Position numbers and translations under genes: made by a program. This document shows positions 44,253 through 57,317 of a DNA stretch of 64,000 nucleotides, in pieces. How positions within the stretch are numbered: the first letter of the stretch is position 1; each line of letters begins with the position of its first letter. Under the pieces are notes generated by a model. The model did no database searches and had not been told where the DNA came from. It worked only from the letters and a program-made list of their open reading frames with translations. Origin of the DNA: Lacunisphaera limnophila (GTDB lineage: Bacteria; Verrucomicrobiota; Verrucomicrobiia; Opitutales; Opitutaceae); the NCBI RefSeq assembly GCF_001746835.1, contig NZ_CP016094.1, forward strand, positions 806,001 through 870,000, written 5' to 3'.

Positions 44253-44280
44253 TTGACATTTGCCCCATGAAATTTACCGT
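44253..44280 (+). promoter_or_regulatory. Candidate sigma-70 type promoter for the TPR/PEGA-like gene
   Basis: A consensus TTGACA (44253-44258), a 16-base spacer and TACCGT (44275-44280). The predicted start near 44287 lies downstream of the in-frame ATGs at 44228 and 44267 and upstream of 44348. This favours 44348 as the translation start. The -10 match is only partial. Confidence 0.4.
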
Positions 44281-44347
44281 CCCGCCAGTCCCCTCGTCCC
44301 CAACCCAGCAGTCCACGCTAAACGCCACTGCCAACGTTCTTCCGCGT

Positions 44348-46048
44348 ATGAGCGACTCATCGGATTCCACGCCCAACAAGAAACGCCGGGTGATCCATTG
44401 GGATCCGGAACATGGTCGTGACAACGGCGCCAAACGCTGGACCGTCCTCCGCCTCGCCGCCTGGATTCTCGGCGGCGGCCTGGCCCTGCTGATCGTGGCC
44501 GGTCTCGCGATCCGGGGCATCCGCCTCGTGGTCGGTCCGCAATTTCTCCGCCCGGATGCTGTCGCGACGAGCACCACCACGGACGACCCGAGTCTCGCCT
44601 TCGTCACCGAATCCAAGGCCACCCTCGCGCGCGAGAATGTCGCCAACGCGCTGAATGAAATGCGCCGCCTGCCGCAGGATCACCCGAGCCAGCTCCAGCA
44701 GCTCATTCTCATCGAGAAGGCGTTTCTCGGCGGCGAAATCCTGCTCGCCAACCGCAACTACGCCGCCGCCTACGCCCACTTCACCGCCCTCGGCCGCGAG
44801 ATCGACGCCTTCAGCGAAAACGTGAAGCTCAAGCAGGTCACCCAAAAGGCGTACGACGAGGTCCTCGTTCGCATGCGCGATCTGGACCGCGCCCGCGACC
44901 TCGCGCCGGCGGAATTCGAGACCGCCTTCGCCGACGCCGGCACCGGCCGCCAGTTCTTTGTCGACGGGCGCTTCGCCACCGCGAAGAAGCAGTTCGACGC
45001 GGCCTTCGCCGCCCTCGACCGCGCCGAGGCCGCGCTTAAGGACTTTGTGGATGATAATCTCCGCCAGGCCCTGGAGGCGGTCGCCGCCGGCGACAAGCCC
45101 CGCGCCCTCGCCGCCTTCCAGGCCGCCCTGGAAAAGGATCCCGGCAACGAGATCGGCCTGCAAGGGCTCAAGCGGGCCGAGGTCGCGGACCGGGTCCGCG
45201 CGCTCATCATCCAAGGCGAAGGCCTGGAACAGAAGCAGGAGCACGCCGCTGCCGCCGAATCCTATGGCAAGGCCTTCGAACTCGACGCCTTCTCCGCCGT
45301 GGCCCAGCAGGGCAAATCCCGCAACGAGCGCCTGAAGAAGGAGACCGCGCTCAACGCCGCGCTCGCCGACGCCACCGCCCACCGCGAGGCCGCCGCGTGG
45401 GACCAGGCCATCGCCGCCTACGAGCGCGCGCTCAAGGTCGATCCCACGAACGAGAACGTGTCGAAGGCCCTCGCCGAAACCCGCGAGACCGCCCAGCGCG
45501 AGGCCGTGAAGAGCGCCCTCGCCAAGGCCCTCGCCTACGAGAACAAATACGAGTGGGAACAGGCCCGGGGCAGCTACCATGAGACCATGGAACTCGACCC
45601 GGCCAACACCGAGGCCAAGGAGGGCTACTTCCGTACGGGCAAAATGATCCGCACGCTCATGCAGTACAACAAGCTGGTGGACGTCGCCGAGTCCCACGCG
45701 CAGCGCGCCGAGTTCCAGTCCTCCATCCGCTCCTTCAACGAGGCCATGGCCATCAAGCCCGCCTACCTCGCCCTCACCGATCGCGTCAGCCAGCTGCGCG
45801 CCGTCCTCAATCTCCAGAGCAAGCCCGTCGACGTCACCTTCCGCTCCGACGGCAACTGCTGGGTCTCGATCAGCAATTTCCGCATGCTGGGAAAAATCTC
45901 CTCCCAGACCGTCAAGATGCTCCCCGGTGACTACGAGATCGTGAGCCGCCGCAAGGGTTACCAGGATGTCCTCCTGCTGCTGCAGGTGCGCAACGGCAGC
46001 ACCCCGCCGATCGTCAGCGTCGCCTGCACCCTCCGCGCCAGCGGTTGA
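44348..46048 (+). CDS. TPR protein with N-terminal membrane helix and PEGA-like C-terminus
   Basis: 566 residues from the ATG at 44348. A charged head (NKKRRVIHWDPEHGRDNGAKRW) precedes a membrane helix (about 37-57), then a long TPR-type solenoid (examples GDKPRALAAFQAALEKDPGN, WDQAIAAYERALKVDPTN, WEQARGSYHETMELDPAN). The end has a small beta domain reading VDVTFRSDGNCWVSISNF ... LLPGDYEIVSRRKGY-type residues, which recalls PEGA domains. The protein should be a cytoplasmic-head, periplasmic-solenoid scaffold. It opens a plus-strand trio with the small exported protein and the calcium-repeat protein. The trio converges on the stator-like operon and may belong to the same system. Confidence 0.82.
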   Translation: MSDSSDSTPNKKRRVIHWDPEHGRDNGAKRWTVLRLAAWILGGGLALLIVAGLAIRGIRLVVGPQFLRPDAVATSTTTDDPSLAFVTESKATLARENVANALNEMRRLPQDHPSQLQQLILIEKAFLGGEILLANRNYAAAYAHFTALGREIDAFSENVKLKQVTQKAYDEVLVRMRDLDRARDLAPAEFETAFADAGTGRQFFVDGRFATAKKQFDAAFAALDRAEAALKDFVDDNLRQALEAVAAGDKPRALAAFQAALEKDPGNEIGLQGLKRAEVADRVRALIIQGEGLEQKQEHAAAAESYGKAFELDAFSAVAQQGKSRNERLKKETALNAALADATAHREAAAWDQAIAAYERALKVDPTNENVSKALAETRETAQREAVKSALAKALAYENKYEWEQARGSYHETMELDPANTEAKEGYFRTGKMIRTLMQYNKLVDVAESHAQRAEFQSSIRSFNEAMAIKPAYLALTDRVSQLRAVLNLQSKPVDVTFRSDGNCWVSISNFRMLGKISSQTVKMLPGDYEIVSRRKGYQDVLLLLQVRNGSTPPIVSVACTLRASG

Positions 46049-46052
46049 TCCC

Positions 46053-46718
46053 ATGAAATACCCCGTCCCCCTCCTGGCCGCCGTGTTGCTCCTCAACGCC
46101 GGCGCGCAGACGGCCGCTCCTGTGCCCGTCCCCGGCGCCCCCTCCGCCAACCGCCCCCGCCCGGCCACACCCGCCAAGGCTACCGCGGCCAAAGCCGCTT
46201 CCGGGGTGAAAGCCGTGCTCCCCGACCCCGACCTCCTCGACGGCTCCAAATACGAGCCGGAGAAGCGCCCGCTCTACGGCATGCTCTCCGAGATCGAGAT
46301 GGGCGAGGAGGAGGGCGGCGAACAAGATCGCGTCAGCCCCAATTCCGGCCCTGCCGGCCAGCCCCCTCCGCCGGGCCAGGAAAACAAACCGGGCGGCGCC
46401 GGCCCGGAACAGGAAAAGCAAGGTTCCGCCGAAAAAATCGAGGAAGGCCCCGCCGCCAAGCCCGAGGGCGCGCAGGCGCAAAAGATCAATGCCCCCGAAG
46501 GCGCCCAGCAGCAGGCCGGCGGCCCCCAAGGCAGCGCCCGCGAGATGCAGATCGGCGACGCCACCCTCCAGATCCAGACGGAAGCCAAATCCCCCGACGT
46601 GGTCGGCCAGGAGGCCAGCAAGGCCCAGCAATACGAAAAGCCCACCCCGGCCGGCCAGCAGTCCAACACCCGCAACCAGGGCGTGGAGAAGGGCAAGGTC
46701 ATCCCCAAGGGCCTCTGA
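46053..46718 (+). CDS. Exported Pro/Ala/Gln-rich protein of unknown function (221 aa)
   Basis: A signal peptide (MKYPVPLLAAVLLLNAGAQT) is followed by a low-complexity mature part, with Pro/Ala at the start, a short conserved-looking segment KYEPEKRPLYGMLSEIEMG (around residues 66-84), and then a Gly/Glu/Gln/Pro-rich region. It is likely intrinsically disordered. It begins four bases after the TPR gene and ends ten bases before the calcium-repeat gene. The three genes are thus one operon. The conserved-looking segment is the only part that might bind a partner. No family is recognised. Confidence 0.7.
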   Translation: MKYPVPLLAAVLLLNAGAQTAAPVPVPGAPSANRPRPATPAKATAAKAASGVKAVLPDPDLLDGSKYEPEKRPLYGMLSEIEMGEEEGGEQDRVSPNSGPAGQPPPPGQENKPGGAGPEQEKQGSAEKIEEGPAAKPEGAQAQKINAPEGAQQQAGGPQGSAREMQIGDATLQIQTEAKSPDVVGQEASKAQQYEKPTPAGQQSNTRNQGVEKGKVIPKGL

Positions 46719-46728
46719 CCCCCGCGCC

Positions 46729-47991
46729 ATGAAACGCCTTCTTCCCCTCCTGCTCCTGCTCGCCCTGGTGGCCCCCCGCACCTCGGCCAAGACCGTCATC
46801 TTCCCCGTCGAAGGCATTGCCGACCTCTGGCAGCTGGCCGAGGTCGAGTTCGCCCAAAAATACGCCGGCATCAACGTCACGGGCCTCGGCCCGAGCGATG
46901 AGGGCTGGTATGTGCGCTACCGCCACGAAAACCTCACCTACCTCTTTGGGCCGCTGACCGACGATGACGCCGCCCTCCGCGCCCGCTGGGAACTGGAGGC
47001 CGTGCGTGACGCCGCCATCCGCACCCGGCCCACCCTCGACACCAGCCAGATCGATGTCGTGAAATTCACCTTCAGTGGCGAGATGGGTCGGCGCGGCGAC
47101 GGCTCCGGCGGCCCGGGCGGCCCCCGCCCCACCCACGACATCGACGGCAAACCGCTCGGGGGCGACGGGGACATCGATGGCGACGGCATTCCCGACCACA
47201 AGGATCCGGACATGGACGGCGACGGCATCCCCAACAAGGACGACGCCGATGTGGATGGCGATGGCGTGTCCAATACCCAGGACGGCGACATGGATGGCGA
47301 CGGCATCCCCAACGAATCCGACGGCGACCTGGACGGCGATGGCATCGCGAACACCGCGGACAGCGACCTCGATGGCGACGGCCAGAGCAACGCGATCGAC
47401 GGCGACGTGGACGGCGACGGCACACCCAACGAGCAGGACGGCGACATGGACGGCGACGGCACCGAGAACGGCCGGGATTCCCAACCCGGCCAGTACACCG
47501 CCGAGGGCCAGTCGGCCGCCGACGGTCAGGGGCAGCAGGGGCAGCAAGGTCGCCAAGGCCAGCGGCAGAGCCAGAGCCAAGGCCAGCAGCAAGGCCAACA
47601 GGGCCAGCAAGGGCAGCAAGGCCAGCAAGGGCAACAGGGCCAGCAGAGCCAGCAATCACGGCAGCAGCAAAGCCGCATGCAACGGCCCGGCTCCCAGTCC
47701 TCGCAGAGCAGCAGCCAGCAGCAATCGCAGCAGGAGCAGCAGGGCCTCCAGGTCATGAATCCCTCGTCCGGCCAGCCCGGGCAACCGTCCCAGTCGCAAA
47801 GCCAATCCCAACAGAATTCGCAGGGCCAGCAGGGGCAGCCTTCCTCGCAACAATCTCAGCAGCAAAGCTCCTCCTCGTCGTCCAGTTCTAGTTCCAGCGG
47901 CGGCCAGGGCCAGCCCTCCCAGCAGCAGCAACAGCAGCAGCAGAGCAGCCTGAACATCGTCCAGATGCTGCGGTGGATCCTGGGGATCTGA
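46729..47991 (+). CDS. Exported calcium-repeat protein with Gln/Ser-rich tail
   Basis: 420 residues. Signal peptide (residues 1-20), then an unannotated domain (about 20-125), a Gly-rich hinge, eight DxDGDG units (148-251) and a tail of about 150 residues made largely of Gln, Gly and Ser. The last 15 residues are SLNIVQMLRWILGI, a short hydrophobic helix. DxDGDG-x-x-N/D repeats are thrombospondin type 3-like calcium-binding motifs found in secreted or surface proteins. The tail should be disordered or self-associating. It is the last gene of the trio and faces the vWA operon across a palindromic gap. Function unknown; a calcium-dependent envelope scaffold is a guess. Confidence 0.85.
   Translation: MKRLLPLLLLLALVAPRTSAKTVIFPVEGIADLWQLAEVEFAQKYAGINVTGLGPSDEGWYVRYRHENLTYLFGPLTDDDAALRARWELEAVRDAAIRTRPTLDTSQIDVVKFTFSGEMGRRGDGSGGPGGPRPTHDIDGKPLGGDGDIDGDGIPDHKDPDMDGDGIPNKDDADVDGDGVSNTQDGDMDGDGIPNESDGDLDGDGIANTADSDLDGDGQSNAIDGDVDGDGTPNEQDGDMDGDGTENGRDSQPGQYTAEGQSAADGQGQQGQQGRQGQRQSQSQGQQQGQQGQQGQQGQQGQQGQQSQQSRQQQSRMQRPGSQSSQSSSQQQSQQEQQGLQVMNPSSGQPGQPSQSQSQSQQNSQGQQGQPSSQQSQQQSSSSSSSSSSSGGQGQPSQQQQQQQQSSLNIVQMLRWILGI
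47170..47481 (+). repeat. Eight tandem 39-base units encoding DxDGDG calcium motifs
   Basis: The motif D-x-D-G-D-G-x-x-N/D-x-x-D recurs eight times with an exact 13-residue (39-base) period: DIDGDGIPD, DMDGDGIPN, DVDGDGVSN, DMDGDGIPN, DLDGDGIAN, DLDGDGQSN, DVDGDGTPN, DMDGDGTEN. The even spacing and variation between units fit expansion by recombination followed by drift. Confidence 0.9.
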
Positions 47992-48097: not shown

Positions 48098-49141
48098 CTA
48101 ACGCTCGGGTCGCTCGCGGTCGCGCGGACGCTCCTCGCGTTCCTCGATCTCCTGCAGGGCGATGAAGGCCCCCCCGTGCTGAAAGGTCACCTCGCGCATC
48201 AGGTTCGCGTATTTGACGCCGGTGTTGCCCATGGAGAAACCCATCTTCACGGCGGTCGGGAACCCGATGGCATTGATCACCACCCGCCGCTTGCCCTGCT
48301 CGTTCCGTGGGTTCAGCTCATCCAGGCGGCGCAACACCGCGTCGGCCGTGCCGGTGAACTCGTCCCCGAGGATGAAGATCGTCATGCGCATCTCGGGGTC
48401 GTTCTCGTCCAGCAGCGTGCGCAACGCCCGGACAATGCCGGGCACGGGATTGCTGTTGCTGAAGATGTCGTAGTCAAAGAGCGCGGACTTGATCGCATTG
48501 CGCGTGGCGGCGTTGTCCGGGAGCCAGGTCTGCTCGGCCTGCCGGCCGCTGATGATGAAACGGCCGTCGGCGTCGAGAAACTGGATGCCCTTCACGTCGG
48601 GATAGGCGTTGAGCACCTCGTCAAACTTCTTGAGCACGATCGGCCAGATCCGCTCGCTGCTCGGATCGCGCATGCTGCCGGAGCTGTCGATGATGAAGGC
48701 GACATGGTTGCTCTCCGCCGGCAGGCCGATCGGGGCAGGGTCGACCGACAGGGCGATCTCCTTCGGCTTCTGTCGGGCCGCCAGGTCCGTTTTGACCTCC
48801 TCCACATCCACCAGCAGGCGGTCGCGCGCAGCCTTTTGGTCGGCGACCTGCTGCTCCAGGCGCGCCAGCAGCTGCTTCAGGCTTTCCTTCTCCTGCAACG
48901 CGATGGTCGAGACACTCGCGCGTGCCTGGGTGATCAAGATCTCATCCTGGCTGCGCCGCAGCTCGGCCAGCGTCACCAGCTGCTGCTCGACGATCCGCTG
49001 CAGGCGCTCGCGCAACTCCTGCACCACCTTGGTCTCCGAACCCATCGTCAGCACAAACAGCAGGATGATCGCCCCGAAACCGCAGCAGATGCAGTCGAGG
49101 AACGAGAGGCTGAAGATCGGAACGCTGGAGCGGCGGATCAT
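48098..49141 (-). CDS. Membrane-anchored vWA protein with ExbD-like helix (intact MIDAS)
   Basis: 347 residues from the ATG at 49141, which overlaps the preceding stop by four bases. The N-terminal helix FSLSFLDCICCGFGAIILLF carries D16 exactly where ExbD/TolR/MotB-type proteins have the proton-binding Asp (compare their P-F-I-D helix start). A long coiled coil (about 36-115) follows, then a vWA domain with a complete MIDAS start D152-x-S-x-S (IIDSSGSM) and FILGDEFTG. The domain should be periplasmic. Proposed role: the moving rod of a stator driven by the ExbB/MotA-like channel encoded upstream, ending in a vWA instead of a peptidoglycan-binding domain. The assignment is inference from motifs. 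Confidence 0.82.
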   Translation of the reverse strand: MIRRSSVPIFSLSFLDCICCGFGAIILLFVLTMGSETKVVQELRERLQRIVEQQLVTLAELRRSQDEILITQARASVSTIALQEKESLKQLLARLEQQVADQKAARDRLLVDVEEVKTDLAARQKPKEIALSVDPAPIGLPAESNHVAFIIDSSGSMRDPSSERIWPIVLKKFDEVLNAYPDVKGIQFLDADGRFIISGRQAEQTWLPDNAATRNAIKSALFDYDIFSNSNPVPGIVRALRTLLDENDPEMRMTIFILGDEFTGTADAVLRRLDELNPRNEQGKRRVVINAIGFPTAVKMGFSMGNTGVKYANLMREVTFQHGGAFIALQEIEEREERPRDRERPER

Positions 49142-50202
49142 GTGTCGGGCCAGTCGGCGGAGGGACTGACCAGGGCGCCGTTGGTGTAGCCGGCGAGTTC
49201 CCAATACAAGGCGGGCGCACCGGGATCGCCGCTGGTGGGAAACAAAATCGTGCTGACCGGAATGCGCGGCGGCAGCTGCCGGATGGCCTGGCGGAGGTAA
49301 GCCATGCGCGTGTCATCGTCGCTGCCTTCGGAAGACGGCGCGCTGTCGCTGGCGGTGGGCAGGCCGTCGGTCAGGAGCACGATGGAGTCCGGCAGGATGG
49401 GCAGGTAGCGCACGGTGTTGAAGGCCCGCTCCAGGTTGGCCGAGCCCTCGGGCACGACCTGCCGGAGCTTGGTCAGCGTCTGCTGCACGCCCGCTCGGTC
49501 GCCGCGCGAAACCCAGCCGTCCGACCGGTCCGGCAGCAGCGGCACGGTCTCGTCGTTGAAGAGCAGGATCTGGAAATTCGCATCGGTGCCGAGGCTCGCC
49601 ACCAGCCACTCCAGCGCCTTGACCACCCGCTGCCACTTCGGCGCCGCCCGCTTTTTGAAGTCGGGCTCGTCGAGCCGGGCGATGGCGTCCTCCAGGGTGT
49701 CACCCAGCATGCTGCCGGAGGCCCGCACGATGAACAGCACGTGGCTGCCCTCCAGCTTCACGCCGGTCAGGTACTGCCGCCGGTCGATCTCGGGGATCGG
49801 CACCGGCTGCTGCTCCTCCTCGGGCATGTTTTTCAGGTCGGCCAGCAGCTTCGCCTCTTCGTCCCGCAGCGCCGCGATCTGGCGGAGCAGGCGCTTCAGC
49901 TCCTCCTCCTCCGCGTCGGCCTTGCTCTTCGTCTGGACGTTCTCCTCCTGCATGCTGGCCAGCTCGGCCTCGGTCAGGGTGGCCGGTCGGGCCAGCTTGC
50001 TCAGCGCGAGCTGTTCCTGCGTGATATCGCGGTCCAGCTGCGTCACCTGCTTCTTCAGCTGCTCCACCGTGTCCTTGCCGTAATCCGATTTCTGTCCGGT
50101 GGTGAGGATGAAGAGCAGCAGCACCGCGCCAAAGCCGCAGCAGATGCAGTCCATGAAGGACATGCTGAATATCTCCGTTTCGCGGCGCTTGCCTTTGAGC
50201 AT
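49138..50202 (-). CDS. Membrane-anchored vWA-like protein with ExbD-like helix (degenerate MIDAS)
   Basis: 354 residues with the same plan as the next gene: helix IFSMSFMDCICCGFGAVLLL with D18, coiled coil about 38-125, then a vWA fold. The MIDAS start is RASGS (R160-x-S162-x-S164), so the metal-binding first Asp is replaced by Arg. LLTDGLPTASD later in the fold keeps the MIDAS-type TDG. This copy is therefore unlikely to bind metal in the standard way and may be the structural partner of the intact copy. The stop overlaps the start of the downstream vWA gene (ATGA). A heteromeric two-rod complex, as in ExbD/MotB dimers, is the simplest reading. Confidence 0.82.
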   Translation of the reverse strand: MLKGKRRETEIFSMSFMDCICCGFGAVLLLFILTTGQKSDYGKDTVEQLKKQVTQLDRDITQEQLALSKLARPATLTEAELASMQEENVQTKSKADAEEEELKRLLRQIAALRDEEAKLLADLKNMPEEEQQPVPIPEIDRRQYLTGVKLEGSHVLFIVRASGSMLGDTLEDAIARLDEPDFKKRAAPKWQRVVKALEWLVASLGTDANFQILLFNDETVPLLPDRSDGWVSRGDRAGVQQTLTKLRQVVPEGSANLERAFNTVRYLPILPDSIVLLTDGLPTASDSAPSSEGSDDDTRMAYLRQAIRQLPPRIPVSTILFPTSGDPGAPALYWELAGYTNGALVSPSADWPDT

Positions 50203-50216
50203 GGCGGGCGGGCCGG

Positions 50217-51701
50217 CTAACCGTGATGGCGGATCAGCGCGGTGTCGGGACAGTAGGCGAACAGCACCTCGGTCTGGTGGACCCCGTGCTGGATGGTCAG
50301 GCGGTCACCGGCCTCGATCAGGGCGCGTTCGTTCGCCTGGCTTGCCAGCGAGCCCGGCAGCCACCACTGGCCGTCGGCCTGCTCCAGCAAGACCTGGCCG
50401 CCCGGACCGGAGGCATCAAATTCCTCGGGCAAAGTCAGGTCCGGGCTCAGGGCGGCCGGACCGATGGTGAAGACCCGCTGCCCGTCGAGCGCGTGGCCGA
50501 GCCCCTCGCACAACGCGTGGGAGGGCCGGCGGGCGGGTGACGGCCGGCGGGCTTTGACCAGGCGGACGATGCAGCGGTCGGCCGATTGCTGCGGCAGCAG
50601 GCTGGCCGGCGCCGAGAGTTCCACCGGCACATCGGCAATCTCATCGCGGGTTTCGCGCTGCGCCCCGAGGCGGGCGGCCCCGGCCGCCGCGGCGCCCGGG
50701 GGCAGGTGGAGCACCCGGGACAGGCCGGCAGCCTGCAGCACGCCCGCGAGCCCGGGCAGCAGGTCCGCGCGCGCGGTGAGCGCCACGGTGCAGCGGGGCG
50801 AACGACCGCCGCTCTTCTTGAAGATCGCCTGCGCGCCCTGCAGCACCGCCTGGTTGAAGCCGCTCAGGTCGGCGGCCAGCTGGTCGCGCGTGGCGATCAG
50901 CTCGTAGGTCCGCGTACCGGTGTTGATCTGGTAATGGAAACCCATCACGCCCGAGATCAGAAATTCCTTCGTCTGGTTGTAGAAGGCCTGGCCGGTCTTG
51001 CCGTCCTCCTGGATGTCAAACGTCGTGTGCCGCAGGAACCGGTTGGCCATGGTGCCGGTGATGTGGCGCAGCAGCTCGCCAAAGCCGATGTGCGCCACCT
51101 TCGCAAAATCGCGTCGCGTCAGGCGCCCGTCCGCCTCCGGCTGGAAGAGCGTGAGCTCCGCGCCGCGCAGGTGGATGTCGATCATCAGCAGCGGCAGACT
51201 GGAGTCGAAATAGTCGATGCGCGGGTCGCACAGGGAGGCGGCCGCCATGTCGACGATGCCGGCCAGGGGCAGCTTCAGCTCCGCCGCCATGCCCAGCAGC
51301 AGGCCGATGCGTTCCTCCTCCGTCGCGGCGTCGAGCAGGTAGTCCCCCGGCACCGCCAGCACCGCCTTCTGCGGCGTGCCCGTGACCGCGGTCACCCGCG
51401 CGCAGTATTCCTTCAGGAAAAAATAGGCCAGTTGCGAGTAAGGCAGCGGCCGGCCGGCCGGGCCGAGCGGCGAGGTCTCGTGCGAGAGGCGGCTCCACGC
51501 CTCGTGGGTCACCTGCTTGGGCCGGGCATACCAGAATTTCTCCGCCTCGGGCCCGTAGCAGCCCGTCTTGCCATCGTGGAAAGCCAGGCCGAGGCAGCCC
51601 AGCGGGCCGCCGCCCTCGATCAGCGGGTAGGTGCTGGCACCTTCCCGCGACAGGGCCGCTTCAAAGCCCGCATCACATAATTCCAGGCCAAGGACAGGCA
51701 T
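50217..51701 (-). CDS. Actin/Hsp70-fold-like protein with possible C-terminal FHA-like domain
   Basis: 494 residues, no signal or membrane helix. The start VLGLELCDAGFEAALSREG resembles the first phosphate loop of the actin/Hsp70 fold, VLAVPGDYLLDAATEEERI the following AVPA.F.d..R. motif of Hsp70, and LLMIDIHLRGAELTLFQ the second phosphate loop (usual form D.GGGT..). The loops are divergent, so ATP binding is not certain. Residues about 395-494 include ALIEAGDRLTIQHGVHQTEV, an FHA-like strand order, but this is weak. It lies 3 bases after the channel gene and 14 before the vWA gene, so it is part of the stator-like operon, perhaps as a cytoplasmic regulator. Confidence 0.6.
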   Translation of the reverse strand: MPVLGLELCDAGFEAALSREGASTYPLIEGGGPLGCLGLAFHDGKTGCYGPEAEKFWYARPKQVTHEAWSRLSHETSPLGPAGRPLPYSQLAYFFLKEYCARVTAVTGTPQKAVLAVPGDYLLDAATEEERIGLLLGMAAELKLPLAGIVDMAAASLCDPRIDYFDSSLPLLMIDIHLRGAELTLFQPEADGRLTRRDFAKVAHIGFGELLRHITGTMANRFLRHTTFDIQEDGKTGQAFYNQTKEFLISGVMGFHYQINTGTRTYELIATRDQLAADLSGFNQAVLQGAQAIFKKSGGRSPRCTVALTARADLLPGLAGVLQAAGLSRVLHLPPGAAAAGAARLGAQRETRDEIADVPVELSAPASLLPQQSADRCIVRLVKARRPSPARRPSHALCEGLGHALDGQRVFTIGPAALSPDLTLPEEFDASGPGGQVLLEQADGQWWLPGSLASQANERALIEAGDRLTIQHGVHQTEVLFAYCPDTALIRHHG

Positions 51702-51704
51702 CGT

Positions 51705-52565
51705 TTAATCCTCCCGGCGCTGCGCCTCACGCTGGGGCACGCGCATGATATGAACCAGTTTTTCGCGGCAGTAGTTCTGCAGCTCGAGGATCAGAGCCTC
51801 CTGGCGGGACTGCAACATGTGGAGCATGTACATCAGGATCATGCTGAGGATGAGCGCCACGAGCGTGGAATTGAAGGCCAGGCCGAGGGCGGAAACCACG
51901 CCGCTCAGGTCGCCCTTGATCGCCTCGTCGGCATGCGAGAGGGCGTCGCCGATGCCGCGCACCGTGCCGATGAAACCCACCGCCGGGATGGCCCAGGCGA
52001 TGTAACGGATCAGGGAAAGCTCCGAATCCAGGTTGTCGGCCACAAGCTCCGCCCGTTCCTTCACCGCGCTCGCGGCGTCCTGCACGGAATTGGTGGCCTG
52101 AAAGCGGTGCAGGGCGGCCAGCAGGAAATCCGGCAGCAGCCGCTCCCGCCAGCGCGGGGTCGCCTCGACCGAGGTCTTCAGCTCCTTGTAGCGGTCCAGC
52201 GCGTCCTCGGGGATGATGCGTTCGCCCTGGCGCACCCCGATGAAGTCGTGCCGCAGCAGTCCGCGCTCCCGGCCGACCTCCACGAGTTTGTAGGTCAGGA
52301 TGATGGTCGCCCAGAGCCAGAGCATCAGTTCGACCTCCTGCTCCGGATCCTTGATGATGATGTAGATCGAGCGGGGCGCGACCTTCGCCTCATCGTCCGA
52401 CTGTTGCGCCGCGCTCAGCCGTTGGGTGATTTCCAGCTCGGCCACATGCGGCCTCACCACGAGGGAAAAATAGGCCTCCACGATGAGGATCGAGACCAGG
52501 AGACCCACGTTCGGAACCAGAAAATCCAGTGAAAAGATGCCCTTATTGCGGGAGAGGATGGCCAT
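51705..52565 (-). CDS. MotA/TolQ/ExbB-like proton channel protein
   Basis: 286 residues with four membrane segments (about 17-37, 80-98, 190-212, 217-242). The family signature is in the third helix, AIPAVGFIGTVRGIGDAL, and the fourth starts VVSALGLAFNSTLVALILSM, the ordinary ExbB/TolQ/MotA pattern (A.P..GLLGTV.G....F ... ALxTTxxGL). It is the first gene of the minus-strand operon with the actin/Hsp70-like and vWA genes and divergent from the lipoprotein at 52705 across 139 bases, which hold no clear signal other than an AT-rich run. It should form a pentameric proton channel whose partners are the ExbD-like helices of the two vWA proteins. Confidence 0.88.
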   Translation of the reverse strand: MAILSRNKGIFSLDFLVPNVGLLVSILIVEAYFSLVVRPHVAELEITQRLSAAQQSDDEAKVAPRSIYIIIKDPEQEVELMLWLWATIILTYKLVEVGRERGLLRHDFIGVRQGERIIPEDALDRYKELKTSVEATPRWRERLLPDFLLAALHRFQATNSVQDAASAVKERAELVADNLDSELSLIRYIAWAIPAVGFIGTVRGIGDALSHADEAIKGDLSGVVSALGLAFNSTLVALILSMILMYMLHMLQSRQEALILELQNYCREKLVHIMRVPQREAQRRED

Positions 52566-52704: not shown

Positions 52705-53349
52705 ATGAAATTCCAAGGTGCCCGCAACCGCCCCGCGTTACATCGGAGCCTGGTGTCTCTCGGCAGCGCCGCCGTCATCATTTCCCTGGTCGGTTGCCAA
52801 GTGGCCCCTTCCAAGACCGTCACGGGCGCCGGCACCGGCGCGGCGGCCGGCGCCGTGGTCGGCGGCCTCGCCGCCGGCGCGACGGGCGGCAACTCCAGCC
52901 AGGGCCTCCTGGCCGGCGCCGGCGCCGGCGCCATCATCGGCGGCATCGTCGGCCTCACGCAGGAAATGAAGGAGCGCAAGGAGCAGGACCGCCTCGCCCA
53001 GGAACGCGCCTACCAGCAGGAACTCGCCCGCAAACGCGCCGAGGAGGCGAAAAACCGCGCCCTGCTGGATGAGGAACTCGCCGTCGCGCAGGGTTTCCAG
53101 ATTTCCGACCTCGAGCTCACCGAGGCCCAGAAGAAGGTCGACAGCGCCGCCGGCCGCCTGGCCAAGCTGCGCGAGGAACGCACCGCCGCCCTCTCCAAGA
53201 AAAAGGCCCTCGACGAGGCCAACGAAAAGCTCCTCTCCACCGAGGCCGAGATTGTCCGCCTCGAGGAAGAGCTGGCGCGGCTCAAAAACGCCCCGGTGGA
53301 AACCGTCACCGCCACCACGGATCCCACCGCCGCCCCCAGCCCGAATTGA
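52705..53349 (+). CDS. Glycine-zipper lipoprotein with coiled coil
   Basis: 214 residues; type II signal peptide with lipobox LVGC (about residue 31). Residues 38-85 form a glycine-zipper type segment (GAGTGAAAGAVVGGLAAGAT and GAGAGAIIGGIVG), which in other lipoproteins packs as a membrane hairpin. The rest is a continuous charged coiled coil (KKVDSAAGRLAKLREER and so on, about 95-195) with a Thr/Pro tail. It probably sits in the outer or inner membrane leaflet with a helical arm in the periplasm. It is divergent from the stator-like operon and could be part of that envelope machine, but only position supports this. Confidence 0.78.
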   Translation: MKFQGARNRPALHRSLVSLGSAAVIISLVGCQVAPSKTVTGAGTGAAAGAVVGGLAAGATGGNSSQGLLAGAGAGAIIGGIVGLTQEMKERKEQDRLAQERAYQQELARKRAEEAKNRALLDEELAVAQGFQISDLELTEAQKKVDSAAGRLAKLREERTAALSKKKALDEANEKLLSTEAEIVRLEEELARLKNAPVETVTATTDPTAAPSPN

Positions 53350-53406: not shown

Positions 53407-54162
53407 ATGAACTCGAATAACCGCTCCCTCCTGACCGTGGCGGCCCTGCTCGGCGCCACCGCGGTGGTTTTCACCGGCTGCAACACCACCGAGACCTACA
53501 CCGTGCAGGTCGATGCCATCGCCACCCCCACCGAGGTCGGCAAACCCGCCCCCGCGGCGGAATCCTACCACATCCGCACCCGCAATCCCCAGCTCGACGA
53601 GGGCAGCCTTCGCTACAAGGAGGTCACAGATTACGTCCGCACCGCCCTCTCCGGCAAAGGCATGTATGAGGCCCCGAACGCCGAGCAGGCTGACGTGGTG
53701 ATCGATGTCGACTACGGCATGGATGCCCCGCGCATCAAGTACCAGACCATCAGCACGCCGATCATCCACCAGCAGCCCAGCCGCATGGTCAGCCAGACCC
53801 GGACGATCACCCGCGTGACCTCCACCGGCGAAACGATCACCTACTTGGTGACGGAACAGGTCCTCGTGCCCGGCTCCACCGAGTTTCTCGGTATCCAGGA
53901 GAGCATCCAGCCCGTGATCGTCTACGAGAAATTCCTCAAGCTCTCCGCCCGCACCAACCAGGAGGCCGACGAGGGTCGCCCCGCCCCCGAGGTCTGGAGC
54001 GTCAACGTCTCGGCCGAGGACGACAGCCAGGAGCTGCGCAAGTACATGCCCATTCTCGCCTCCGCCACTGCCGACTACATCGGCACCAACACCAAGGAAT
54101 CGAAGCCCGTCAAGATCAAGGAGGGCGACGAGGTGGTGACGTTCATCAAGAAGGGCATGTAG
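53407..54162 (+). CDS. Lipoprotein of a tandem pair, copy 1 (251 aa)
   Basis: Type II signal peptide with lipobox FTGC (about residue 25). The mature part opens TYTVQVDAI and contains YHIRTRNPQ, YVRTALSGKGMYEAPNAEQADVVI and DVDYGMD, then a beta-rich middle and LRKYMPILASATADYIGTNTKE near the end. The start resembles DUF4136-type lipoproteins. The same sequence of elements recurs in the downstream gene, so the two are tandem duplicates. The gene starts 57 bases after the glycine-zipper lipoprotein. Function unknown. Confidence 0.75.
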   Translation: MNSNNRSLLTVAALLGATAVVFTGCNTTETYTVQVDAIATPTEVGKPAPAAESYHIRTRNPQLDEGSLRYKEVTDYVRTALSGKGMYEAPNAEQADVVIDVDYGMDAPRIKYQTISTPIIHQQPSRMVSQTRTITRVTSTGETITYLVTEQVLVPGSTEFLGIQESIQPVIVYEKFLKLSARTNQEADEGRPAPEVWSVNVSAEDDSQELRKYMPILASATADYIGTNTKESKPVKIKEGDEVVTFIKKGM

Positions 54163-54222
54163 GTGCCGCCCCCACCCGGGTTTCGCGTTGTGCCCGGGGG
54201 CGACCCCGCCATTTTCCCCTCC

Positions 54223-54903
54223 ATGGCCCTCCGGCAACTTCTCCCTTGGTGCAGTCTGCTCGCGATGCTCGGTCTGGCCGGCTGCATGACCGTGCACAAC
54301 GTCACGATCGATGCGATCAGCGATCGGACCAAGCCGCTCGGCGCCACCTATCACCTGGAGGTCAACGACCCCAGCGGTGGCGTGGATCCAACCGTCCACG
54401 GCGCGGCGGTCGAGACCATCATGGACGCCCTCGCCGCCCGCGGGCTGTATGAGGTCCCCGCCAGTGTGCGCCCCGACATGATGATCGAGGCCAGCTACGG
54501 CACCGGCCACGGCTACATCAAGATCATCAATGAAGCGAACACGCCGATCCTGCTCGGCTCGAGCCTGCCCACCAACAACTCCAAGGCCGTGGTGGTCTAC
54601 GACAAGACCCTCGAGATCACCGCCCGGGCCCCCGCTCCACCGGGCGCGGCCAGCCGTCCCGGCCATCCCGCGAAACCGCTGGACGAACTCTGGAGCGTGA
54701 AGGCGAAGATCATGGACAACAAACAGGAGCTGATTCCCTACCTGCCCGCCCTCGCCTCCGCCTGCATCGACTACATCGGCGAGAATCCCGGCCGGGAGCT
54801 GACCCTCCCGGTGGAGGCCGGCCAGGCCAAGGTTCTCCTGCAGCAGCGCCCCGCGGCGCCCGCGCCCGCGGCGGCGCCAGCCCCGGTCGCGACCGCCCCG
54901 TAG
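54223..54903 (+). CDS. Lipoprotein of a tandem pair, copy 2 (226 aa)
   Basis: The ATG at 54223 gives a signal peptide with lipobox LAGC; the in-frame start at 54163 would add Pro/Gly-rich residues and is rejected. Copy-1 motifs recur in order: VTIDAISDRTKPLGATYHLE, ETIMDALAARGLYEVP, DMMIEASYGTGHG, LWSVKAKIMDNKQELIPYLPALASACIDYIGEN. The C-terminus is Pro/Ala-rich. About 60 bases separate it from copy 1. It converges on the thiamine-riboswitch TonB receptor with 12 bases between the stops. Function unknown. Confidence 0.75.
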   Translation: MALRQLLPWCSLLAMLGLAGCMTVHNVTIDAISDRTKPLGATYHLEVNDPSGGVDPTVHGAAVETIMDALAARGLYEVPASVRPDMMIEASYGTGHGYIKIINEANTPILLGSSLPTNNSKAVVVYDKTLEITARAPAPPGAASRPGHPAKPLDELWSVKAKIMDNKQELIPYLPALASACIDYIGENPGRELTLPVEAGQAKVLLQQRPAAPAPAAAPAPVATAP

Positions 54904-54915
54904 CTTCCGCCGGCC

Positions 54916-57045
54916 TCAAAACCGCCACGCCGCGGTCACGCCCAACTGACGCGGATCCGCGCGATTCTCATAACGCGTTTCGAGGTAGTCGGGATCCTCG
55001 TTGCCGAAGAAATAAACCCGCCGGTCATAGACCTCATCGAGCAGGTTCTTCGCCCACAGCGTGACCGTCCAACGCTCCCACGCATAACCCAGCGTGGCGT
55101 TGACCACGCGGAAGGCGCGCCGCGCCTCGTTCTGGTTGTTGGAATCGAACTGCTCCGCGCGTCCCGCCAGCTCCGCCCCGCCGAAAAGCCCGCGCCCCGC
55201 GTCGTAACGCACCCCCCAAGTGTAGCCATAACGCGGCGTATTCGCGAGGACCCGGCCGCCACCCGCGTTGCCGTTGCCGAGGGTGAAAGGATCCAGCCGC
55301 GAGCGCATCAGCGCCAGCGAGCCCCGCACCGACCAGGCGCGCGTCAGCGCGTACGCGGCCGAGGCCTCCAGCCCGGTGACGCGCGCCCCGTCACCGTTGT
55401 CGGTGAAAAAGCGATAGCTGCCGCCAAAGCCCGCCGAGTCCCGCACCTGCGTGTCCCGTCGCCACAGCGCGAAGGCGGTGACCTCGCCGGTGAGCCGCTC
55501 GTCCAGCCAGTGGCCGCGCAGGCCGGCCTCCGCGTTCCACAGGGTCTCGGTGGCGTACGTCAGCGGATCGGTCGCCGGATCGATTCGCGCGTCCACGTTG
55601 ACGCCGCCCGCCTTGTAGCCGCGCGTCAACGAGACGAAGAGCAGCTCGTGGCCGCTGAGGTCATGCTCCAACGCGACCTTGCCGCCGACCAGGGTGTCCT
55701 CGAACGTCGGCCGGATGACGACCACCGGGTCAAAGCTTCCGCTCGCGCCGCGGTAGCGGGTCTTGGTGCCCTCGCCCTCCAGGTCGATGCGCTCCGCGCG
55801 GAGGCCGGCCACCAGGCGCGTGCGCGGCGTGAAATCGTGACCCACCTGGCCGAACAGCGCGAGGTTGCTCGCCCGATAAATGGTCCGGAGCCCCCGGATG
55901 TCCCAGGGATCGGTGTTGGTGTAACGGGAAAACTCCTCCGTGTCGGACAGAAACGCGCCGAGCGTCCACCGGCTGATCCAACCGGCCGCCGGGCCCGGCA
56001 CGGAGTCGAGGCGCAATTCCTGATTCACCACCCAACGCGTGCGCGTCAGGTCGCTGAAGCCCATGTAGGATGCGGCCGTCCAATCGTCATCATAACTGTA
56101 CACCGACCGCGTGCGGGCGCCGCTGGTGACGGTGCTGAGGCGCACGCCGTCCCACCCCGCATACGTTCCCCGCAGGCTGGCGGCGAAGGACTCCTGCGCA
56201 TCGCGGCCGGGTTGGTCGCTGAAGGTGTTCGTGCCGTTGTTATCGAGCGCAAATTCGTCGTAGCCGCTGTCGAGGTCGGCCGCGAGTACGGCCGCTTCCC
56301 AGCGCCAGGCCGCGTTGGGGTTCCACGTGAGGCGCAGGCGCGCGGTGAGCTCGTCCCGGGCGTTGGTGTCCCGGCCCAGCGTGACGTTCCGTCGGAAGCC
56401 GTCGCTCTCGCTCTGTTGCACGGCGAGGCGCATCATCAGCCGGTCGGGTTGACCTTCCCCCAAGGGCCCGCCAACCGCGAAGCCGCCGCTGCGCAGCGCG
56501 TCCTCGCCCGCCGTGAACTCGGCCTGCCCGGTCCAGTAGGGCGTCGGCGCGTTCGTCACGAGTCGCACCACGCCACCCGCGGCGTTGGCCCCAAAGGCCC
56601 CCGCCTGCGGGCCGCGCAACACCTCCGCCTGGCTCACGTCAAACGTGCTGCCCAGCCCCCCGAGTCCGGTGAAGTCGAGGTCATCCACCACAAAACGCAC
56701 GGCGGAGTCCGGCGTCTCGCCCTCAAATTGCGAGTTCTCCCCGATGCCGCGGATCTGCAGGTGACGCGGGCGCGAGGTGCCGCCCGTCCAGGTGAGGTTG
56801 GGCAACCGGTCCACGAGGTCGCCGAAATGGCGGACCGCGCCGGCCCGCAGGGATGCTTCATCCTGGACGGTGACACTCGCGGGGATGCGTGCCAGCGGCG
56901 ACTCCCAGAGGTCCGCGGTGACGCGGAGCGGGGCCAGGATCAGCGGGGCGGCGCCGGCAGGGGCCGGCCCCGGGGTTTGGGCGGGCGCGGAGAGCCACAA
57001 CAGGCCGGTGAAGGCGGGGAGGAGGAGTCGGTTCGGGATTTGCAT
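54916..57045 (-). CDS. TonB-dependent outer-membrane receptor, TPP-riboswitch controlled (probable thiamine uptake)
   Basis: 709 residues from the ATG at 57045. Signal peptide, then a plug domain with IPASVTVQDEASLRAGAVRH, LPNLTWTGGTSRPRHLQIRG and AEVLRGPQAGAFGANAAGG, followed by a 22-strand type beta-barrel that closes with ADPRQLGVTAAWRF. It is an ordinary TonB receptor for energised import across the outer membrane. A TPP riboswitch sits in its leader, so the likely substrate is thiamine, a thiamine phosphate or a precursor; this is inference from regulation. No other thiamine gene is in the window. The gene runs against the RND operon. Confidence 0.93.
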   Translation of the reverse strand: MQIPNRLLLPAFTGLLWLSAPAQTPGPAPAGAAPLILAPLRVTADLWESPLARIPASVTVQDEASLRAGAVRHFGDLVDRLPNLTWTGGTSRPRHLQIRGIGENSQFEGETPDSAVRFVVDDLDFTGLGGLGSTFDVSQAEVLRGPQAGAFGANAAGGVVRLVTNAPTPYWTGQAEFTAGEDALRSGGFAVGGPLGEGQPDRLMMRLAVQQSESDGFRRNVTLGRDTNARDELTARLRLTWNPNAAWRWEAAVLAADLDSGYDEFALDNNGTNTFSDQPGRDAQESFAASLRGTYAGWDGVRLSTVTSGARTRSVYSYDDDWTAASYMGFSDLTRTRWVVNQELRLDSVPGPAAGWISRWTLGAFLSDTEEFSRYTNTDPWDIRGLRTIYRASNLALFGQVGHDFTPRTRLVAGLRAERIDLEGEGTKTRYRGASGSFDPVVVIRPTFEDTLVGGKVALEHDLSGHELLFVSLTRGYKAGGVNVDARIDPATDPLTYATETLWNAEAGLRGHWLDERLTGEVTAFALWRRDTQVRDSAGFGGSYRFFTDNGDGARVTGLEASAAYALTRAWSVRGSLALMRSRLDPFTLGNGNAGGGRVLANTPRYGYTWGVRYDAGRGLFGGAELAGRAEQFDSNNQNEARRAFRVVNATLGYAWERWTVTLWAKNLLDEVYDRRVYFFGNEDPDYLETRYENRADPRQLGVTAAWRF

Positions 57046-57123
57046 TGGGTTTGGATTGCCCGACCCGACCAGACTCCCGACAGAAGGGGCGCCGTGCGCC
57101 CGATGGCGCTTCCGCGGCGCCTG

Positions 57124-57218
57124 CTGTTTCCTTCGTCGGCATGATCCGTTCAGGTTCGAAGGGTCGAGCGGTCGAGCGCACCGCAATCTCAGTCCTCCGC
57201 GGAGGACACCCCTACAGG
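57124..57218 (-). promoter_or_regulatory. TPP (thiamine pyrophosphate) riboswitch
   Basis: Read on the minus strand, the conserved TPP-box parts are present in order: AGGGGTGTCC, the P3 hairpin with palindrome TCCTCCGCGGAGGA, GGACTGAGA, then CGACCC, GAACCTGAACGG and ATGCCGACGAAGGAA. The 3' half of the pattern is usually GAACCTGATC.GG..AATGCC, so the match is close. It lies 79 bases before the receptor ATG. Between them GGGCGC-ACG-GCGCCC (57087-57101) forms a 6-bp hairpin that could be part of the expression platform; no strong T-run follows it, so control of translation or a weak attenuator is possible. Confidence 0.9.
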
Positions 57219-57317
57219 CAAGCCGGACCAAAGTCCGCCGCCGCCTTTACACAAGCCAAAGTTTTCCCGCCCCCTGCTTGCCGCCGGATGCTTTCGCCGC
57301 AATATGTTCGGATTCCG

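Follow-up and report, generated by a model that had tools for sequence, protein, structure and literature searches.

Few kinds of ion-driven membrane motors of the MotA, TolQ and ExbB type are understood, and a small operon of Lacunisphaera limnophila raises the question of whether a channel of this type can drive an axle built from two different vWA proteins. The source of the window (the whole 64,000-nucleotide stretch that was analysed) is a complete 4.2 Mb genome, and window positions 48098–52565 carry four minus-strand genes, arranged head to tail in the order motA-like, Hsp70-like, vwaA and vwaB (Table 1). The motA-like and Hsp70-like genes are separated by 3 bases and the Hsp70-like gene and vwaA by 14 bases, and the likely vwaB start, an ATG at 49141, overlaps the vwaA stop codon as ATGA, in agreement with the preliminary description of four adjacent genes on one strand with overlapping or near-abutting ends. 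A search with NCBIfam gave no match above the cut-offs. The reading that we favor, with a probability of roughly 0.6, is that the operon encodes a MotA/TolQ/ExbB-type ion-driven motor whose axle is the pair of vwaA and vwaB products, replacing two copies of ExbD, TolR or MotB.

Table 1. The operon and its neighbors, in window positions.
Feature	Position	Strand	Basis
membrane TPR protein, PEGA-like C-terminus, exact start uncertain	44270..46048	+	
proline-rich protein without annotation, conserved neighbor	46047..46718	+	
secreted protein, thrombospondin type 3-like DGDG repeats and long Gln/Ser-rich tail, conserved neighbor	46729..47991	+	
vwaB: layout as vwaA; helix Asp16; intact MIDAS motif DSSGSM	48098..49141	-	alignments; model
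vwaA: N-terminal pore-type helix with Asp18, coiled coil, vWA without MIDAS Asp	49138..50202	-	Pfam VWA_3; alignments
Hsp70 nucleotide-binding-domain-like protein (residues 1-351) with degenerate C-terminal FHA-derived domain	50217..51701	-	AlphaFold2 model, profile matches, Pfam FHA in orthologs, hhalign
motA/tolQ/exbB-like channel subunit, 286 aa	51705..52565	-	Pfam MotA_ExbB E 1.3e-14; TolQ profile match in PDB
glycine-zipper protein, probable lipoprotein; divergent neighbor kept in Opitutales loci	52705..53349	+	
putative lipoprotein, conserved neighbor	53407..54162	+	weak DUF4136 match
paralog of 53407..54162 protein; kept mainly within genus	54163..54903	+	

The channel protein matches Pfam MotA_ExbB at 54.4 bits against a cut-off of 22.9, and in a search of the PDB its family profile hits TolQ at E 0.002. 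Both pore threonines align in this match; the threonines of its GTVRGI and AFNSTL motifs fall on those of TolQ GTVWGI and ALIATAIGL (Thr145 and Thr178), two residues that PMC12905483 lists, together with Asp23, as essential to the TolQ-TolR motor. Neither threonine varies among the MotA-like channel proteins (43/43). There are eight MotA/ExbB genes in the genome and seven of them adjoin an ExbD or MotB gene; that of the operon is the only one without such a neighbor, and the vWA pair is therefore its only evident partner. Elsewhere in the same genome an ExbB-like gene is followed by two different ExbD-like genes (G000:C1:4041180-4042496), an arrangement resembling the other vWA-transducer arrangement of PMC12204202.

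Both vWA proteins begin with a short positively charged tail followed by a single hydrophobic helix that carries an Asp close to its beginning (vwaB Asp16 is column D17 of the vwaB alignment). The mean net charge directly before the helix is about +2.6, and this would fit an orientation with the N-terminus inside and the vWA domain outside. The preliminary description had noted the F(L/M)DCICCGFGA start with an Asp at the ExbD/MotB proton-binding place, and had named lack of conservation of this Asp among relatives as an observation that would speak against a motor. We examined this in a conservation set of 48 loci from Verrucomicrobiota and Gammaproteobacteria, and the FxxxF(L/M)DCICCGFGA stretch recurs far beyond chance in 46 vwaA and 45 vwaB relatives, with the Asp present in every one (46/46 and 45/45, or 91/91 across the loci). 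A model of vwaB has one helix spanning residues 23–124 (about 100 residues) and then a vWA fold, with a moderate pLDDT of 72, and bears out the earlier layout of helix, coiled coil and vWA. The vwaB profile gave only coiled-coil-type noise against the PDB (E above 0.02), and the helix profiles of the vWA proteins have no significant match to ExbD and MotB, a comparison in which the ExbD versus MotB control is likewise not significant. Pfam identifies VWA_3 in vwaA (E 3e-7) and only a weak VWA_2 in vwaB; Pfam and fold searches give vWA alone for these proteins, and neither an ExbD periplasmic fold nor an OmpA-type peptidoglycan-binding domain was detected.

The two heads differ at the metal site, where vwaA of the window has VRASGSM, without the MIDAS Asp, and vwaB has an intact DSSGSM. 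This Asp is kept in all 45 vwaB relatives; it is replaced in 23 of the 46 vwaA relatives (Arg in 11, Glu in 11, Ala in 1), mainly in the order to which the window belongs, and kept in the other 23. The earlier proposal of adhesive or metal-dependent vWA ends thus holds, in the window's lineage, for vwaB at most.

A tree of 90 sequences separates the vwaA and vwaB clades at 100/100, and each clade contains both Verrucomicrobiota and Gammaproteobacteria, which indicates that the duplication predates the spread between those groups and that both copies have been kept since. Both paralogs are present in 44 of the 48 loci, and some of the exceptions are contig ends. From these sequence comparisons vwaA and vwaB look like two fixed subunits, and the ancient duplication with retention of both copies leads us to infer a two-protein axle. 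Pairwise distances of the four proteins correlate at 0.82–0.94, as shared descent alone would also give.

As in TolQ-TolR, ExbB-ExbD and MotA-MotB, a channel family with both pore threonines is combined with a partner that has an N-terminal single helix with an Asp; unlike those systems, the partner consists of two paralogs, each with a long coiled coil and a vWA head. The invariance of the helix Asp and of the pore threonines, and the lack of an accompanying ExbD or MotB gene, support the motor inference. The core of such a system has been reported: a 2025 study in Mol Biol Evol (PMC12204202) used sequences and AF3 models to describe TPH-vWA/TolQ putative force transducers in Proteobacteria and Verrucomicrobia, in which tolQ genes are accompanied by pairs of vWA proteins whose pore helix resembles that of ExbD and bears an Asp, and gave their function as unknown. 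The operon shares with these a tolQ-like gene, two different vWA genes, the pore-helix Asp and the absence of tolR/exbD, a likeness drawn from the published description. It differs in the Hsp70-fold/FHA subunit and in the MIDAS loss, neither of which is mentioned in the text of that paper, and in that the TPR gene there is tied to another vWA family. A text search of the paper for Hsp70, chaperone, heat shock or FHA-domain partners gave none. Also not found in it are the kinase, FGE/PEGA and TPR/PEGA genes around the Hsp70-fold/FHA protein in Gammaproteobacteria, and the MIDAS loss in one head in the window's lineage. The wider gene set is not described in the open-licence literature that we searched, and no experimental characterisation was found there; the earlier statement that no characterised system with these parts was known is amended, for the vWA/TolQ core, by the in silico report. 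The motor core was thus predicted from sequence in 2025, and the Hsp70/FHA companion, its possible phospho-control and the conserved genes beyond the core appear not to have been reported.

The product of the second gene has no match in a Pfam search. An AlphaFold2 model (pLDDT 86) superimposes on Hsp70 nucleotide-binding domains with Z 31–33 over 333–348 residues and the family profile matches BiP/DnaK at E about 1e-6, so that the actin/Hsp70-like assignment made previously is confirmed as an Hsp70 fold (Z about 32). In the window's protein the nucleotide loops are altered and DIHLRG stands in place of the glycine-rich phosphate loop typical of Hsp70, so that ATP hydrolysis may be absent. An FHA domain scores above the Pfam cut-off in five of seven orthologs, and hhalign aligns the window's family with the FHA-bearing orthologs at 98% probability; by these profile comparisons the C-terminus is FHA-derived and degenerate in the window. 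With regard to a substrate-binding domain such as Hsp70 chaperones have, the relationship seen for the C-terminus is this one to FHA. The SRxH and NG residues of FHA are present in three orthologs (L143-L145) and absent from the window's protein. The Foldseek and VIA match lists are dominated by the Hsp70 domain, and cover that domain, not the C-terminal one. The gene is found in 39 of the 48 loci. Seven loci that seem complete in other respects lack it, three of them from a single Verrucomicrobiota family and four gammaproteobacterial, which makes it dispensable for the core. One locus (L031:1-7256) has motA and the Hsp70-like gene without vWA genes, in whose stead DNA methyltransferase-like and Vsr-like genes follow.

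The Opitutales operons have divergent lipoprotein-like genes and a convergent trio, led by the TPR/PEGA gene, on their flanks. Homologs of this TPR/PEGA protein precede motA in the gammaproteobacterial loci, where a TPR/PEGA gene and a PEGA/FGE gene are upstream of motA; in one locus (L144) the TPR gene is fused to a kinase (Pfam), and some of the PEGA/FGE proteins have an FHA-like start, by eye. Near the operon, L034:13808-15928 and L095:1405-3498 encode membrane proteins that combine several PEGA domains with an FGE-sulfatase domain at the C-terminus. The threonine-phosphorylation pathway of type VI secretion (PpkA, TagR, Fha, PppA) uses kinase, vWA, FGE-like and FHA domains; the domain set of the gammaproteobacterial loci is similar and is here attached to a motor, a likeness of parts only. 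The motor is possibly under phospho-signalling control. The same FHA, kinase and FGE-type domains would suit a sensor, in which the MotA-like ring and the vWA pair report the state of the envelope to the Hsp70-fold/FHA protein and do little or no work on the outer membrane. We regard this as unlikely, as the ion-path residues (the Asp and both Thr) are strictly kept, for which a pure sensor has no obvious need, and as the window's lineage has lost the FHA site yet retains the ion path.

For the favored motor, a plausible mechanism is that five MotA-like subunits enclose one helix from each vWA protein (5:1:1), and that relative rotation would be driven by protons (or sodium) leaving the Asp residues of the helices and moving past the threonine ring. 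The helices of about 100 residues would transmit this motion over about 12 nm into the periplasm, where the two vWA heads could act on cell-wall or outer-membrane partners, perhaps the neighboring lipoproteins and the TPR/PEGA protein. By analogy with Tol, force on the outer membrane or wall is a first guess at the cellular task. The Hsp70-fold/FHA protein would be cytoplasmic and probably controls assembly or activity; the earlier proposal of a motor with an actin/Hsp70-fold regulator is supported in its motor part and confirmed in its fold, and its regulatory part is kept as a probable role. In relatives with an intact FHA, control would likely proceed by reading of phosphothreonine, the reading site having decayed in the window's lineage. 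More tentatively, and with less than even odds, the vWA pair would form an asymmetric axle switched by the Hsp70-fold/FHA subunit within a kinase circuit, which Opitutaceae rewired after losing the phosphothreonine site and the metal site of one head. If the motor reading is true, a two-protein axle with adhesion-type heads has its own Hsp70-fold/FHA companion, and motor output may be tied to protein phosphorylation. The residues to test are sharply defined (helix Asp, pore Thr, MIDAS Asp and FHA site), and the gene set also occurs in Gammaproteobacteria, which are easier to handle genetically.

One particular form of the motor reading is that the operon powers the movement of a surface adhesin or secretion, comparable to Agl-Glt in Myxococcus and GldLM in Flavobacterium. 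Myxococcus gliding involves a vWA adhesin, CglB (cited in PMC12204202), and the neighboring secreted protein carries thrombospondin-type repeats; however, this repeat protein has no match in the gammaproteobacterial loci by the search run, and we give the proposal a low likelihood. Conservation of the secreted protein is mainly in its N-terminal part. On the other side of the operon, an ORF at 54916–57231 on the minus strand resembles a TonB-dependent receptor.

Strong matches are present in 22 of 387 Verrucomicrobiota genomes (about 6% of those sampled), each with both vWA paralogs, and within the genus 8 of 21 genomes are positive. Among 321 genomes from the class that includes Allochromatium, 29 give a match, in some cases a weak one. 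Verrucomicrobiota and Gammaproteobacteria share the order motA-hsp-vwaA-vwaB, with motA after vwaB in two loci, and a plasmid search with vwaB gave no match. The patchiness of this distribution, together with weak hits of the channel to ZorA in PADLOC (E 3e-5), would fit a Zorya-like anti-phage system in which the channel resembles ZorA and the vWA proteins take the part of ZorB. We consider this very improbable: the MotA-like channel is shared with ZorAB, but PADLOC finds no match to ZorB, ZorC, ZorD or ZorE among the four proteins, and the operon's neighbors, which are lipoprotein-like and TPR/PEGA genes, are kept over long distances. The matches in Allochromatium and Thiocystis (L040, L041) were rejected as members of the same set, since they represent another channel cluster, one that is PP2C/FHA-linked and includes an ExbD-like helix protein. 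In Allochromatium this cluster (L041:1049-6102) consists of PP2C-like, FHA, vWA-FHA and MotA-like genes together with the ExbD-like helix protein (FNLSMLDVIAGAMAAFLI).
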